Shown: one piece after another, positions 48,146-52,102 of the stretch
How the letters are laid out: every line of letters begins with the position of its first letter
How positions within the stretch are numbered: position 1 is the stretch's first letter
DNA from: Bradyrhizobium sp. B097
GTDB taxonomy: Bacteria; Pseudomonadota; Alphaproteobacteria; Rhizobiales; Xanthobacteraceae
Direction of reading: 5' to 3'
DNA: 64,000 nucleotides
Assembly: GCF_038957035.1 (NCBI RefSeq)
Contig: NZ_CP152412.1
Span: 62,001-126,000 of the forward strand
The notes under the pieces: model-generated
The model's input: only the letters and a program-made list of their open reading frames with translations
The model's database searches: none
Told to the model about the DNA's origin: nothing
Program-made: the position numbers and the translations under genes

Positions 48146-48174
48146 AAAAAGGAAGCCCGGTCAGAGGACCGGGC
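48146..48174 (-). terminator. Intrinsic terminator of the radical SAM operon
   Basis: On the minus strand GCCCGGT, a six-base loop and ACCGGGC are followed by TTCC and TTTTT. It lies 119 bases beyond the last small membrane-protein gene and 136 before the typA start. Confidence 0.85.
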
Positions 48175-48292: not shown

Positions 48293-48532
48293 TCAGCCTC
48301 GCTTCTGCGCCCGCGCGAACACAATCAGCCCGAGCCCGCCAAGCGTCACCAGCACCGCGAGCCCGGTGATCGGGTCGTTGGACCCACCCAGAGTAACACT
48401 GAGGACCACGCAGAGGGCGCCCGGGACCAGCAGCAGCACCCCGACGATCAGCATGAAAATCGCGCAGCCAGGCGGCAGGCGCGGCTCTCGCCACGGCGGC
48501 TCTGTTGGCGGGGGCGGGTCGGAATTGCTCAT
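48293..48532 (-). CDS. Small membrane protein 2 of the radical SAM operon
   Basis: 79 residues. A Pro-rich cytoplasmic N-terminus (DPPPPTEPPWREPRLPPG) precedes two membrane helices: CAIFMLIVGVLLLVPGALCVVLSV and LAVLVTLGGLGLIVFARA. It is similar in layout and motif (GCAxFM ... LLxPGxC) to the protein encoded immediately upstream, so the two are tandem paralogues. The ATG overlaps the upstream stop (ATGA, 48529-48532). Unknown function; it is the last gene of a four-gene operon. Confidence 0.72.
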   Translation of the reverse strand: MSNSDPPPPTEPPWREPRLPPGCAIFMLIVGVLLLVPGALCVVLSVTLGGSNDPITGLAVLVTLGGLGLIVFARAQKRG

Positions 48533-48801
48533 GAGCTCCCCTTGATCGCGGCGCGGATCAGCATCACGCCGGCAAAGCAGACCGCGAGCCCGAGCAGGAT
48601 CAGGAAGAGAATGGAGGGATCGGTCTTCGACTCGCTCAAAACGCCGAACCCGAACAGGAGGGCGCAGAGCCCGGGCAGCAGCAGGATCAGCCCGAACAGC
48701 ACCATGAACGCGGTAGCGCAGCCGCCACGTTGCGGTGGGAGCGGCGGAGGCAGCGAGGGCGGAGATCCGTCCGGATTGATGGGGCGGTCGTCGTCGCTCA
48801 C
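48529..48801 (-). CDS. Small membrane protein 1 of the radical SAM operon
   Basis: 90 residues. Asp/Pro-rich N-terminus (DDDRPINPDGSPPSLPPPLP), then two membrane helices: GCATAFMVLFGLILLLPGLCALLFGF and ILFLILLGLAVCFAGVMLI. Starts with GTG 48801 after AGGAGGTGCCAAG; the GTGA overlaps the radical SAM stop and the gene ends in an ATGA overlap with the next, so all are probably translated in a coupled way. Function unknown. Confidence 0.75.
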   Translation of the reverse strand: MSDDDRPINPDGSPPSLPPPLPPQRGGCATAFMVLFGLILLLPGLCALLFGFGVLSESKTDPSILFLILLGLAVCFAGVMLIRAAIKGSS

Positions 48802-50243
48802 CTTGGCACCTCCTCACCTTGCCGTGCCTCGCGATAGGTCTGCCCCGCCAGGCTTGCGCGGATGCCGTCGATCAGCCCATTGCGATAGAACAGATTGTAG
48901 GTGTCGAACGGGATGATCGCGCCGCTCTCGGTGACGAAGTGGATGCAGCTTCGCTTGACGTTGCCGACGCAGAAGTTGAAGCGATCGAGAAACTGCACGA
49001 TGGTGACGCGGAACACGCTCTCGTAGGTCAGGCCGTCCGGCACCTCGAAGCTCGGCAGGCAGCACAGCAATTCGCAGACCCGCTCAGAGGTGTTGAGCGG
49101 CCCCGACGACAGCGAGAACAAATCGACGAACTTCTCCCGCAGCACCGGATATTTCTCCGGACTGATCGTGTTGGGCATCACGGCGATGAGCTGTTCCTGC
49201 GGGATCAGCGAGGTCAGCGGCAGCACCTTGTCGCCGTTGCGCAGGCCATAGCCGATCGAGATGCTCTCGGGATTGCACGGCAGCGGGATCATATCCTTGT
49301 CGCCGAACACCCCGGTTTCGATCACGCGCCGGCGGATCTCCGACAGCATGATGCGGTCGGTGTCCTTGTTGAAATCCTGGTTGCGGCCGGCGTCCTGCAC
49401 CGGTTGCAGCGTGACGCCGCGGACGCATGTCCAGGTCAGCGCGTGGCGGACGATGTCGCCGATCTCGGCGTCGTTGACGCCGCGCTTGATGGTCGCGACC
49501 AGCGTGGTCGAGACGCCGTGGCGCTCGAGATTCTCCAGCGCCTGCTGGCGGATCTTGCGTAAGTCCGCGCCGCGCAGATTGACCAGCGCCTCGCGCTTCA
49601 GCGAATCGAACTGCAGATAGACTTCCAGCCCGCGCTTGTTCTCGGCGAGCTTCGCCACGAAGTCGGGCTCGCGCGCGATTCTGAGGCCGTTGGTGTTGAT
49701 CATGACGTGACGGATCGGGCGGGCACGCACCGCGTCCAGAATGGCGAAGAAATCCGGATGCAGCGTCGGCTCGCCGCCCGAGATCTGCACCAGGTCGGGC
49801 TCGCCCTCGCTCGCCACCAGCGCATCGAGCATTTTCTCGATCTTCGCCAGCGGCGTGAAGCTTAAGCGTGCCGGCGAGGACTCCGCAAAGCACACCGGGC
49901 AGGTCAGGTTGCAGTGCTCGGTGATCTCGATCAGCGCCAGGCAGGAGTGCTGCTCGTGGTCCGGGCATAGCCCGCAATCATAGGGACAGCCGAATTCGGT
50001 GTGGCGCTGGAAGGCCAGCGGCCGGTCGCCGGGCTTGATGAAATCCTTGCACAGCCGCCAATAGGCCGCATCGGTCGAGACCAAGGTCGACTGCACGCCG
50101 TGCTGCTTGCAGCGCTTCTCGTACCAGACCTCGTTGCCTGATATCTGGATCTTGGTCGGCACCAGGGTCAGGCAGGTCTCGCAAAGCGACTGGGTCTGGC
50201 CCCAGAAGATGTAAGGGCGGGACTTACGCAGCGGCGCGTTCAT
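48798..50243 (-). CDS. Radical SAM protein, tetraether-lipid-synthase-like
   Basis: 481 residues. A zinc-ribbon-like N-terminus (SLCETCLTLVPTKIQISGNEVWYEKRCKQHG) is followed by CPYDCGLCPDHEQHSC and the [4Fe-4S] motif CNLTCPVC (about 111-118). ISGGEPTLHPDF and SAM-fold strands (HVMINTNGLRI, TTLVATIKRGVN) follow. The C-terminal part holds several more Cys (RVCELLCCLPSF, FCVGNVKRSC). The combination of the CGLC segment, a radical SAM core and a Cys-rich C-terminus is that of the family that includes archaeal tetraether lipid synthase (Tes) and bacterial lipid-joining homologues, though the bacterial relatives are mostly uncharacterised. The gene overlaps the Lgt-like gene by 20 bases and the next gene by four. 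Confidence 0.85.
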   Translation of the reverse strand: MNAPLRKSRPYIFWGQTQSLCETCLTLVPTKIQISGNEVWYEKRCKQHGVQSTLVSTDAAYWRLCKDFIKPGDRPLAFQRHTEFGCPYDCGLCPDHEQHSCLALIEITEHCNLTCPVCFAESSPARLSFTPLAKIEKMLDALVASEGEPDLVQISGGEPTLHPDFFAILDAVRARPIRHVMINTNGLRIAREPDFVAKLAENKRGLEVYLQFDSLKREALVNLRGADLRKIRQQALENLERHGVSTTLVATIKRGVNDAEIGDIVRHALTWTCVRGVTLQPVQDAGRNQDFNKDTDRIMLSEIRRRVIETGVFGDKDMIPLPCNPESISIGYGLRNGDKVLPLTSLIPQEQLIAVMPNTISPEKYPVLREKFVDLFSLSSGPLNTSERVCELLCCLPSFEVPDGLTYESVFRVTIVQFLDRFNFCVGNVKRSCIHFVTESGAIIPFDTYNLFYRNGLIDGIRASLAGQTYREARQGEEVPR

Positions 50244-50943
50244 GCTTCAAGCTCACATTCGGGGCCGTCGCCAGCATGACGGCGGCATAAACCATGACAA
50301 ACAGCGACAGCAGGTGGAACAGCGAGAACGGGCCGATCAGCGCGCCATAGGGCTTGATGAACTCCCACACGAAGCGCTGCAGGCCGTAGTAGAACAGCAC
50401 GAGGTAGAATCCATTGGTGATGACAGCGGCGTTGCGGTTCAACACGGCCCAGACGTAGAAGGCCGCGAACGCCGCCATCGCCAAGCTTTCATAGAGCTGT
50501 ACCGGATGGCGCACGACGCCGTCGCCGAAATCATGGCCCCAGGGCAGTGCGGTCGGCGTGCCATAGGTGAAATCCTCGAGCCCCGCGAAATAGCAGCCGA
50601 GCCGGCCGACCGCGACGCCGACCGCAAGCGGCAGCGCAAACCGCGCCCCGGTGCGCAGCGAGATGCCGTGCAGCCATTTGTAGAGCTCGATCGCGACGAT
50701 GCCGCCGGCCAGCGCGCCCTCGACCGAGCGGGCGATGCCAGATATGCCCGAGAACCACAGGTTCAACGTCCCGAAGATGTAGGCGCCGATGCCGGCGCCG
50801 AACACCAGCGCGGCGATATACGTCAGCTCGAAGGATTGCCGCGGGAATTGCAGCCCCCGCACCCGCGATAGCCACCACATCGCGATGGCCGCCGCGCACC
50901 ATGCTGCGACGTCGAAAACGGCGTGAAGTTCAGCCCCACTCAT
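50224..50943 (-). CDS. Prolipoprotein diacylglyceryl transferase (Lgt)-family membrane protein, divergent
   Basis: 239 residues with about seven membrane helices. The Lgt core is GVAVGRLGCYFAGLEDFTYG ... DGVVRHPVQLYESL; canonical Lgt has GRxGNFxNxE, so the essential Asn position is Cys here, while the Arg and the RHPxQLYE block are kept. Lgt moves diacylglyceryl from phosphatidylglycerol to lipoprotein Cys. This paralogue probably handles a related lipid substrate; the housekeeping lgt should lie elsewhere. It is the first gene of a four-gene overlapping operon with a radical SAM enzyme. The ATG 50943 lacks a strong Shine-Dalgarno. Confidence 0.82.
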   Translation of the reverse strand: MSGAELHAVFDVAAWCAAAIAMWWLSRVRGLQFPRQSFELTYIAALVFGAGIGAYIFGTLNLWFSGISGIARSVEGALAGGIVAIELYKWLHGISLRTGARFALPLAVGVAVGRLGCYFAGLEDFTYGTPTALPWGHDFGDGVVRHPVQLYESLAMAAFAAFYVWAVLNRNAAVITNGFYLVLFYYGLQRFVWEFIKPYGALIGPFSLFHLLSLFVMVYAAVMLATAPNVSLKHERAAA

Positions 50944-51137: not shown

Positions 51138-51902
51138 TCAGTTCGCCGGGTTGTCCTCGCTCGGATACACCCCGCGCAGCACTTCCTCGAAGTGATCCTT
51201 CACTGCGTCGTTGCACAGGCAGGAGCGCAGCTTGAGCTTGTCCGGGTCGCGGATCACGATCGCGCCGCGGCGCGTGTCCAGCACGCCCTCCGCCTTGAAG
51301 TTCTGGATCACGCGGCTGGTGTAGCTGCGGCCGACGCCGAGCAGGGTCGAGAGCTGCTCATGCGTCAGCGGCACCACGCCATCGCCATTGGTGCGCTCGA
51401 TCGCCGAGATGATCCATTTCGCGGTGCGCTGCTCGATCGAGTGGATCGCATTGCAGGCGGTCGACTGGAAGATCTGCGCCAACATGCAGTCGGCATAGCG
51501 CGCGAAGATGTTGCGCACCGAGATCGACGTCAGCTTGGCGGCGTCGAGCTTGCTGATCGGCAGCCGCACGAACGGCCCGCCGAACTTGACGGTGATGCGG
51601 GTATAGGCCGGCAGGAATCCCTGGCTGACGATGCCGCCGACCGCGCCCTCGCGGCCGACCAGGATGGTCTCGACGTCGCGGCCGTCCTCGTTGGCCACCA
51701 GGTAGGACGCAAGGCTCGGTCCGCATGGGAAATGCACGATCTGGACGTCGTCGCCGGGATTGTAGAGCAGATCGCCGGCCGCCGCCTCGACCATCGCAAG
51801 ATGCGATGCGATCAATGCGTAGTCGGCGGCATTGAGCCGGCGCAACAGGTTGTTGAACGGCCGGTCATTCGTCCCGGCCACATCGGTCCGTTTCGCAATC
51901 AT
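51138..51902 (-). CDS. Crp/Fnr-family transcriptional regulator
   Basis: 254 residues. A cyclic-nucleotide-binding-like beta-roll (about 25-140: NPGDDVQIVHFPCGPSL, DGRDVETILVGREGAVGG) leads through a dimer helix to a winged helix (about 190-235: LTHEQLSTLLGVGRSYTSRVIQNFKAEGVL). The N-terminal four-Cys signature of Fnr is absent, so it does not look like an oxygen-sensing Fnr. Ligand and targets are unknown. ATG 51902 is preferred to GTG 51962 because the family domain starts soon after; the ribosome-binding site is weak for both. It is divergent from the receiver-protein gene, 200 bases away. Confidence 0.9.
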   Translation of the reverse strand: MIAKRTDVAGTNDRPFNNLLRRLNAADYALIASHLAMVEAAAGDLLYNPGDDVQIVHFPCGPSLASYLVANEDGRDVETILVGREGAVGGIVSQGFLPAYTRITVKFGGPFVRLPISKLDAAKLTSISVRNIFARYADCMLAQIFQSTACNAIHSIEQRTAKWIISAIERTNGDGVVPLTHEQLSTLLGVGRSYTSRVIQNFKAEGVLDTRRGAIVIRDPDKLKLRSCLCNDAVKDHFEEVLRGVYPSEDNPAN

Positions 51903-52102
51903 TGGGAAATCCTGCAGAGCCAACGCGGACCATATTGAAGAAGTTCCAGCTTTTATGTGCACTAGTGAACAGACGCGGCAGCTTACGATGTGATGGGTTT
52001 CATCCCGGGAACAACCGGCGTGCTTTCGGGCGCCGGTCGCGGGCCATCCGGCCGGACTGATCCGGTCCTCTCATCCATCATCGAAGCAATGGACACCGAG
52101 CC

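Follow-up and report, generated by a model that had tools for sequence, protein, structure and literature searches.

A conserved bacterial gene module of a second Lgt paralogue, a Tes/TrsS-related radical SAM enzyme and small cysteine-containing membrane proteins

The window analysed here, a 64,000-nucleotide stretch of the 9.25 Mb genome of Bradyrhizobium sp. B097 (contig NZ_CP152412.1, positions 62,001 to 126,000), encodes on its minus strand a compact unit of four genes, comprising a second paralogue of Lgt, a radical S-adenosylmethionine (SAM) enzyme related to Tes and TrsS, and two small paralogous membrane proteins. These three kinds of gene, the last of them fast-evolving, constitute a conserved module. 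The Lgt-like membrane protein (239 residues, 50224..50943) is encoded first, followed by the radical SAM enzyme (481 residues, 48798..50243), which is matched by the TrsS and Tes models and by GDGT-MAS, and then by small1 (90 residues, GTG start, 48529..48801) and its paralogue small2 (79 residues, ATG start, 48293..48532). Successive genes overlap by 20, 4 and 4 bases, and the unit ends in an intrinsic terminator-like stem-loop with a T-rich tail (48155..48174, minus strand), the stem of which comprises eight pairs, seven of them G-C, and is located between small2 and the downstream neighbour typA, which codes for a translation GTPase. Three terminator-like sites, two of which overlap, occur in the region, compared with a mean of 1.9 (standard deviation 1.4) in shuffled sequences, a count which is not significant on its own; the site at 48174-48155 is the strongest of the three and lies where the end of the unit would be expected. 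A first-pass annotation of this DNA had described both the overlapping four-gene arrangement and the terminator, and the coordinates agree with it on each. It had also assigned the small proteins a Pro-rich tail plus two helices; each protein does contain two hydrophobic stretches, but the Pro-rich part is N-terminal.

At an E-value of 1e-20 or better, relatives of the radical SAM protein are encoded in 27 of 297 genomes of the host's order, 14 of which contain a close orthologue (58-100% identity) and 13 a distant one (36-41%). The Lgt-like profile, which was partly built from these same genomes, identifies exactly the same 14 genomes at 1e-25, with both genes found in 14 and neither in 283 of the 297 genomes, this co-occurrence being a comparison of thresholds (58-100% identity for the radical SAM protein, E 1e-25 or better for the Lgt-like protein). 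At E 1e-60 the radical SAM protein is found in four of 385 genomes of the class and twelve of 398 genomes of the phylum, two and six of which, respectively, belong to the host's own genus, and the pair of Lgt-like and radical SAM genes is also present in other classes of the phylum. Among the loci retrieved, 103 encode a close radical SAM protein, and an Lgt-like gene lies nearby in 102 of these; the contig of the single exception (L094) stops at its radical SAM gene. In a small number of loci the two genes do not overlap but are separated by a few hundred bases. The nearest named relatives belong to Bradyrhizobium (radical SAM proteins 86-97% identical), besides a metagenome bin labelled Tepidamorphus (98%), and the pair also occurs on a 1.07 Mb plasmid of Persicobacter psychrovividus (Bacteroidota), where the radical SAM protein is 46% identical. 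The gene order, the conservation of which beyond close relatives the first-pass annotation had named as a check on its lipid reading, is maintained far beyond these, in other classes and in the Bacteroidota. In a tree rooted on nine TrsS-like proteins, archaeal Tes being left out, the 24 Lgt-linked radical SAM proteins examined all fall into a single clade (support 0.989), separate from the root proteins and from those of the loci L126 and L144 (Mycolicibacterium), and the divergence of the Lgt-like proteins correlates with that of the radical SAM proteins (Pearson 0.89, Spearman 0.63; 253 pairs).

Radical SAM proteins of other kinds were also observed. The proteins of L126 (7698-10044) and L144 (6998-9366) represent another subfamily, encoded beside a methyltransferase gene (annotated in L144, recognised by eye in L126), and the Mycolicibacterium copy is plasmid-borne. 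A second open reading frame, the product of which is 36% identical to the window radical SAM protein, is located approximately 5 kb from the module in L125 (13690-15000). TrsS-type radical SAM proteins are further encoded in genomes of the order which lack the module (L134-L142); four of these nine were scored, and all four pass the TrsS cut-off.

The Lgt-like protein, which the first-pass annotation had recognised as such, is matched by the Lgt profile at 6e-18, reaches the gathering score of the Lgt superfamily (PF01790; 24.9) and is predicted to adopt the Lgt fold. VIA-align ranks Lgt first for the model, far above other structures; with plain Foldseek, Lgt is not among the 50 matches listed. 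The score against the Lgt equivalog TIGR00544 is 24.7 bits, below the cut-off of 118.9. An ordinary Lgt is present in all 17 module-carrying genomes tested, and the Lgt-like paralogue is thus an extra copy. When aligned to Escherichia coli Lgt (5azb), the Arg143 (R114), Arg239 (R190) and Tyr235 places are kept in 23/23 Lgt-like sequences and the Glu202 and Glu243 places in 22/23, with Asp in one. The codons of R114-L-G-C117 (50593..50604, minus strand) form part of a GRLGCY motif, already noted in the first pass, where Lgt has GRLGNF, such that the Arg143 place is followed by Cys at the Asn146 place, again in 23/23 sequences. Cysteine at this place is also found in other Lgt-like proteins. A further difference from Lgt concerns the place of His103 in the HGGL motif (position 75), which is occupied by Glu in the window protein and never by His in the 23 sequences (Glu 8, Val 7, Ala 5, Leu 2, Ile 1); His103 is essential in E. 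coli Lgt according to PMC4728403.

The radical SAM enzyme is matched by the TrsS profile (NF045646) at 5e-89 with 299 bits and by the Tes profile (NF045702) at 1e-76 with 259 bits, below the respective cut-offs of 490 and 450, while further NCBIfam matches are to the intein-bearing Tes model (127 bits) and MoaA (57 bits). TrsS is the best-scoring NCBIfam model for five clade members including the window protein (290-328 bits), and four clade relatives score 264-287 bits with the Tes model. The TrsS-like neighbours, in contrast, score 564-589 bits (four scored of 12 in the order) and lie on the opposite side of the tree. The sequence matches GDGT-MAS of Methanocaldococcus jannaschii (MJ0619; 7tol) over residues 16-324 and 372-457 (E 4e-58 overall), and the AlphaFold2 model, which has a mean pLDDT of 82 and low values at 357-404, resembles 7tol and 7tom with TM-scores of 0.78-0.80, the next structures reaching approximately 0.37. 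Profile, sequence and fold alike place the enzyme with Tes and TrsS, and not with the MoaA/SPASM families.

Three of the four metal-site motifs of GDGT-MAS are present in the window enzyme, all encoded on the minus strand and conserved in 23/23 orthologues and 10/10 distant relatives: the rubredoxin-like iron motif C21-x2-C24-x20-C45-x2-H48 (50100..50183), the N-terminal auxiliary cluster motif C86, C90 and C93 with H96 as the likely histidine (49956..49988), and the radical SAM cluster motif C111-x3-C115-x2-C118 (49890..49913). In PMC9433317, GDGT-MAS is described with the same ligands for these three motifs and with a rubredoxin motif (C9X2C12X20C33X2H36) equal in spacing to that of the window enzyme. 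The CNLTCPVC and CGLC motifs reported in the first pass correspond to the CX3CX2C radical SAM motif and to a part of a second motif, CPYDCGLC, respectively. The cysteines of the C-terminal region differ from those of GDGT-MAS, in that S432 (23/23) and D447 (Asp 18, Glu 5) replace Cys of GDGT-MAS and of the distant group; C433, which is Cys in GDGT-MAS as well, is fixed in the clade, as are C273, C323, C394 and C395, the latter four being nearly absent from the distant group. By hand count on the sequence alignment, Met439 and Tyr459 of GDGT-MAS are replaced by V416 and F436, yet the single variants M439A, Y459F and Y459L of GDGT-MAS remain active, and Tes-type chemistry may thus be retained. 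The enzyme is thus Tes-like in build yet falls short of Tes membership, and its final bond-forming step may be a different one.

As the radical SAM protein groups outside the MoaA/SPASM families and the gene order extends beyond close relatives, a lipid-related role is the leading idea. To this extent the modification of a lipid or lipoprotein suggested in the first-pass annotation is supported, while the making of membrane-spanning lipids by the radical SAM enzyme, its example, is not established. The main rival to a protein substrate is a free-lipid pathway, in which the radical SAM enzyme would join or functionalise the acyl tails of phosphatidylglycerol, giving a lipid that spans the membrane or has modified tails. 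The Lgt-like protein would remodel the head group of this lipid by handing its diacylglyceryl part on to a small molecule, and the hairpin-like small proteins would serve as accessory scaffolds or lipid handlers. The fold match to GDGT-MAS along the chain and the retained phosphatidylglycerol-site residues of the Lgt-like protein are consistent with such a pathway. One proposed scheme for bacterial Mss, which shares with the window enzyme the idea of radical SAM acyl-tail coupling in bacteria and is compared by idea only, begins with phosphatidylglycerol-containing diacylglycerol (PMC13274423), and bacterial Tes homologues have been hypothesised to make membrane-spanning lipids (PMC8941075). 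However, the Tes cut-off is not reached and the C-terminal cysteines are altered, a literature search on membrane-spanning lipids in Bradyrhizobium turned up a single paper, on Acidobacteria, and a free-lipid pathway would leave the fast divergence, the copy number and the shared Cys of the small proteins unexplained; it is considered rather unlikely. A link to hopanoids was considered and rejected. Bradyrhizobium attaches hopanoid to lipid A, and HpnH passes its cut-off in only six of the 17 module-carrying genomes, such that the module is independent of it.

The small proteins, which were not singled out in the first pass, seem to belong to the core of the system. BLAST grouped only the close ones, while side-by-side inspection of the loci revealed proteins of this kind behind the radical SAM gene nearly everywhere. 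Cys46 of small1 (48664..48666, minus strand, in LLPGLC) and Cys41 of small2 (48410..48412, minus strand, in LVPGALC) are located in the outer half of helix 1, and Cys46 aligns with a helix-1 Cys in 27/27 small proteins, which were hand-picked with knowledge of the motif. Using a rule-based, though not blind, definition, fixed once the motif had been seen and a first rule had missed L129 (open reading frame of 50-140 residues, at least two predicted helices, start at most 350 bases past the radical SAM stop, any residue between Gly/Ala and Cys, slightly lengthened helix window), a small gene is located behind the radical SAM gene in 18 of 20 loci versus 5 of 126 control genes, and Gly/Ala-x-Cys occurs in the first helix of the small protein in 17 of the 20 versus 1 of the 126. 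The control genes code for at least 250 residues and derive from 19 of the 20 loci; the loci are distinct and not fully independent (two are from Bradyrhizobium), with L119, L123 and L105 (near copies), L126 (other subfamily) and the window left out. A cruder first count, in which [GA][GALSTF]C within 700 bases was accepted and one helix was sufficient, placed a small gene with the motif in 82 of 96 loci, mostly from Bradyrhizobium and including the out-of-clade L126, versus 3 of 23 control open reading frames. By a loose motif rule with overlapping reading frames dropped, the 76 loci counted, again mostly from Bradyrhizobium, comprise approximately 38 with a single copy of the small gene, 26 with two, 10 with three and 2 with four.

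Across the 48 loci in which the radical SAM protein is 88-93% identical, the median identity of small1 is 53% (42-68%, aligned part), compared with 77% for the Lgt-like protein. Small1 thus diverges faster than both enzymes, a pattern which would be expected for substrates beside modifying enzymes. Short, variable and often multicopy genes with a common Gly/Ala-x-Cys beside a radical SAM gene would also fit a peptide-modifying pathway, in which the radical SAM enzyme would modify the small proteins themselves, as in ribosomally synthesised modified peptides, for example by cross-linking them through a thioether or C-C bond at the shared Cys or close to it, and the Lgt-like protein would lipidate or anchor the product. 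The nearest solved relative is, however, a lipid enzyme (TM-score approximately 0.8), whereas the listed peptide-modifying radical SAM enzymes reach approximately 0.37. Among the features of modified-peptide precursors, a soluble leader is not obvious by eye in the small proteins, which are mostly two-helix hairpins, and the shared Cys lies within a predicted membrane helix. Peptide modification is quite improbable.

The mean charge in the 27 hand-chosen small proteins is -1.0 in the loop and +2.9 in the tail, suggesting that both ends are cytoplasmic and that the Cys is in the outer half of helix 1, which would place it on the same side as Lgt activity. The positively charged tails, as well as the 4-base overlap of the small gene with the radical SAM gene in nine of the 18 loci with a downstream copy, could also be accommodated by a scaffold role, in which the hairpins would be anchors or chaperones keeping the radical SAM enzyme by the Lgt-like protein, the Cys would be structural and the lipid product unrelated. 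Neither one to four diverging copies nor a shared Cys would, however, be anticipated for an anchor, and a pure scaffold role is improbable, it and peptide modification both being less likely than a free-lipid pathway. Two further features of the small proteins were observed. Many of those in Bradyrhizobium and close kin (L030-L108) contain a second Cys at the inner end of helix 1, in R-S/G/N-G-C-L/V/A-T, which was not seen in the more distant loci read. Small proteins of 110-127 residues with three or four predicted helices are encoded at L121:7576-7959, L123:7634-8017 and L124:5429-5761, with GGC kept in helix 1.

The kept lipid-donor site and lost lipobox-reading residue of the Lgt-like protein, together with the variable, often multicopy proteins that mostly share a Cys, the residue modified by Lgt, suggest in our view that the Lgt-like protein lipidates the Cys and that the radical SAM enzyme alters acyl tails. 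The module is accordingly interpreted, tentatively, as a lipid-modification module with the small Cys protein as its protein substrate, a chemistry suggested by the conserved architecture rather than read from it. The Lgt-like enzyme, in the inner membrane, would bind phosphatidylglycerol by its conserved Arg/Tyr/Glu site and transfer a lipid moiety, probably diacylglyceryl, onto the thiol of the shared Cys. The lipobox-reading His103 may be dispensable because the partner would be a membrane hairpin and not a lipobox precursor destined for secretion. Working from the cytoplasm, the radical SAM enzyme could act on the acyl chains of the transferred lipid, either ahead of the transfer or afterwards, taking hydrogen from an unactivated carbon in a Tes-like manner to form a C-C or C-S bond. 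A small lipoprotein anchored in the membrane, its tails chemically altered or cross-linked, would result.

Several observations weigh against a lipidated small Cys protein. The Cys motif is no proper lipobox, with Leu directly before the Cys in 10 of the 27 proteins, and the Lgt-like protein could, without His103 and Asn146, transfer no diacylglyceryl at all. In the C-terminal region of the radical SAM enzyme, cysteines are changed and the model is poor in part, such that Tes chemistry should not be taken for granted. This enzyme is expected to act on the cytoplasmic side and Lgt on the periplasmic side, and a shared substrate would need to cross the membrane. The co-divergence of the Lgt-like and radical SAM proteins can result from common descent alone. 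Among the loci themselves, no small gene was seen on the short metagenome contig L109, the small hairpin of the Persicobacter locus is without the helix-1 motif, the small gene with the motif in L133 lies upstream of the Lgt-like gene and not downstream, and three related loci encode longer small proteins with three or four predicted helices. A more specific form of the lipidated-protein interpretation, a pathway parallel to Sec/Lgt/Lsp, would have hypervariable hairpins lipidated at an intramembrane Cys by the Lgt paralogue and the acyl tail joined to another lipid tail or to sulfur by the Tes-type enzyme. This form is unlikely; if true, ordinary Gram-negative bacteria would contain a membrane lipid that is anchored to a protein and linked through its tails.

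The first-pass annotation had mentioned knowing of no described bacterial system with this gene set, and open-access literature searches likewise returned no description of a module of a radical SAM enzyme and an Lgt paralogue or of these small proteins. Known kinds of enzyme are here joined in a system which was not found described. In PMC9433317, homologues of GDGT-MAS are noted in bacteria without known biphytanyl chains, the authors leaving their reactions and roles open. One clade of these bacterial homologues now has a fixed set of genomic partners in culturable soil bacteria, through which the role of the bacterial homologues becomes testable. Should the small proteins be the substrate, they would represent a second kind of bacterial lipoprotein, while with free lipids as substrate, tail-coupling chemistry would reach common rhizobia, with consequences for how environmental lipid biomarkers are interpreted.

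An anti-phage role was also considered for the radical SAM enzyme. The similarity to viperin (PADLOC pVip; 46 bits over residues 106-223 and 42 bits over residues 107-254) is limited to the shared radical SAM core and this candidate was rejected, no systematic search for defence neighbours having been made. A sigma-70-like site was not found in a promoter scan of the unit, a scan which carries no information either way. A gene coding for a Crp-type regulator is located directly upstream of the unit (51138..51962), which this regulator may or may not control. Relatives of the regulator were not found in the more distant loci, and occur in 70 of the 80 loci that make up the Bradyrhizobium-dominated set, itself drawn from 398 candidates.

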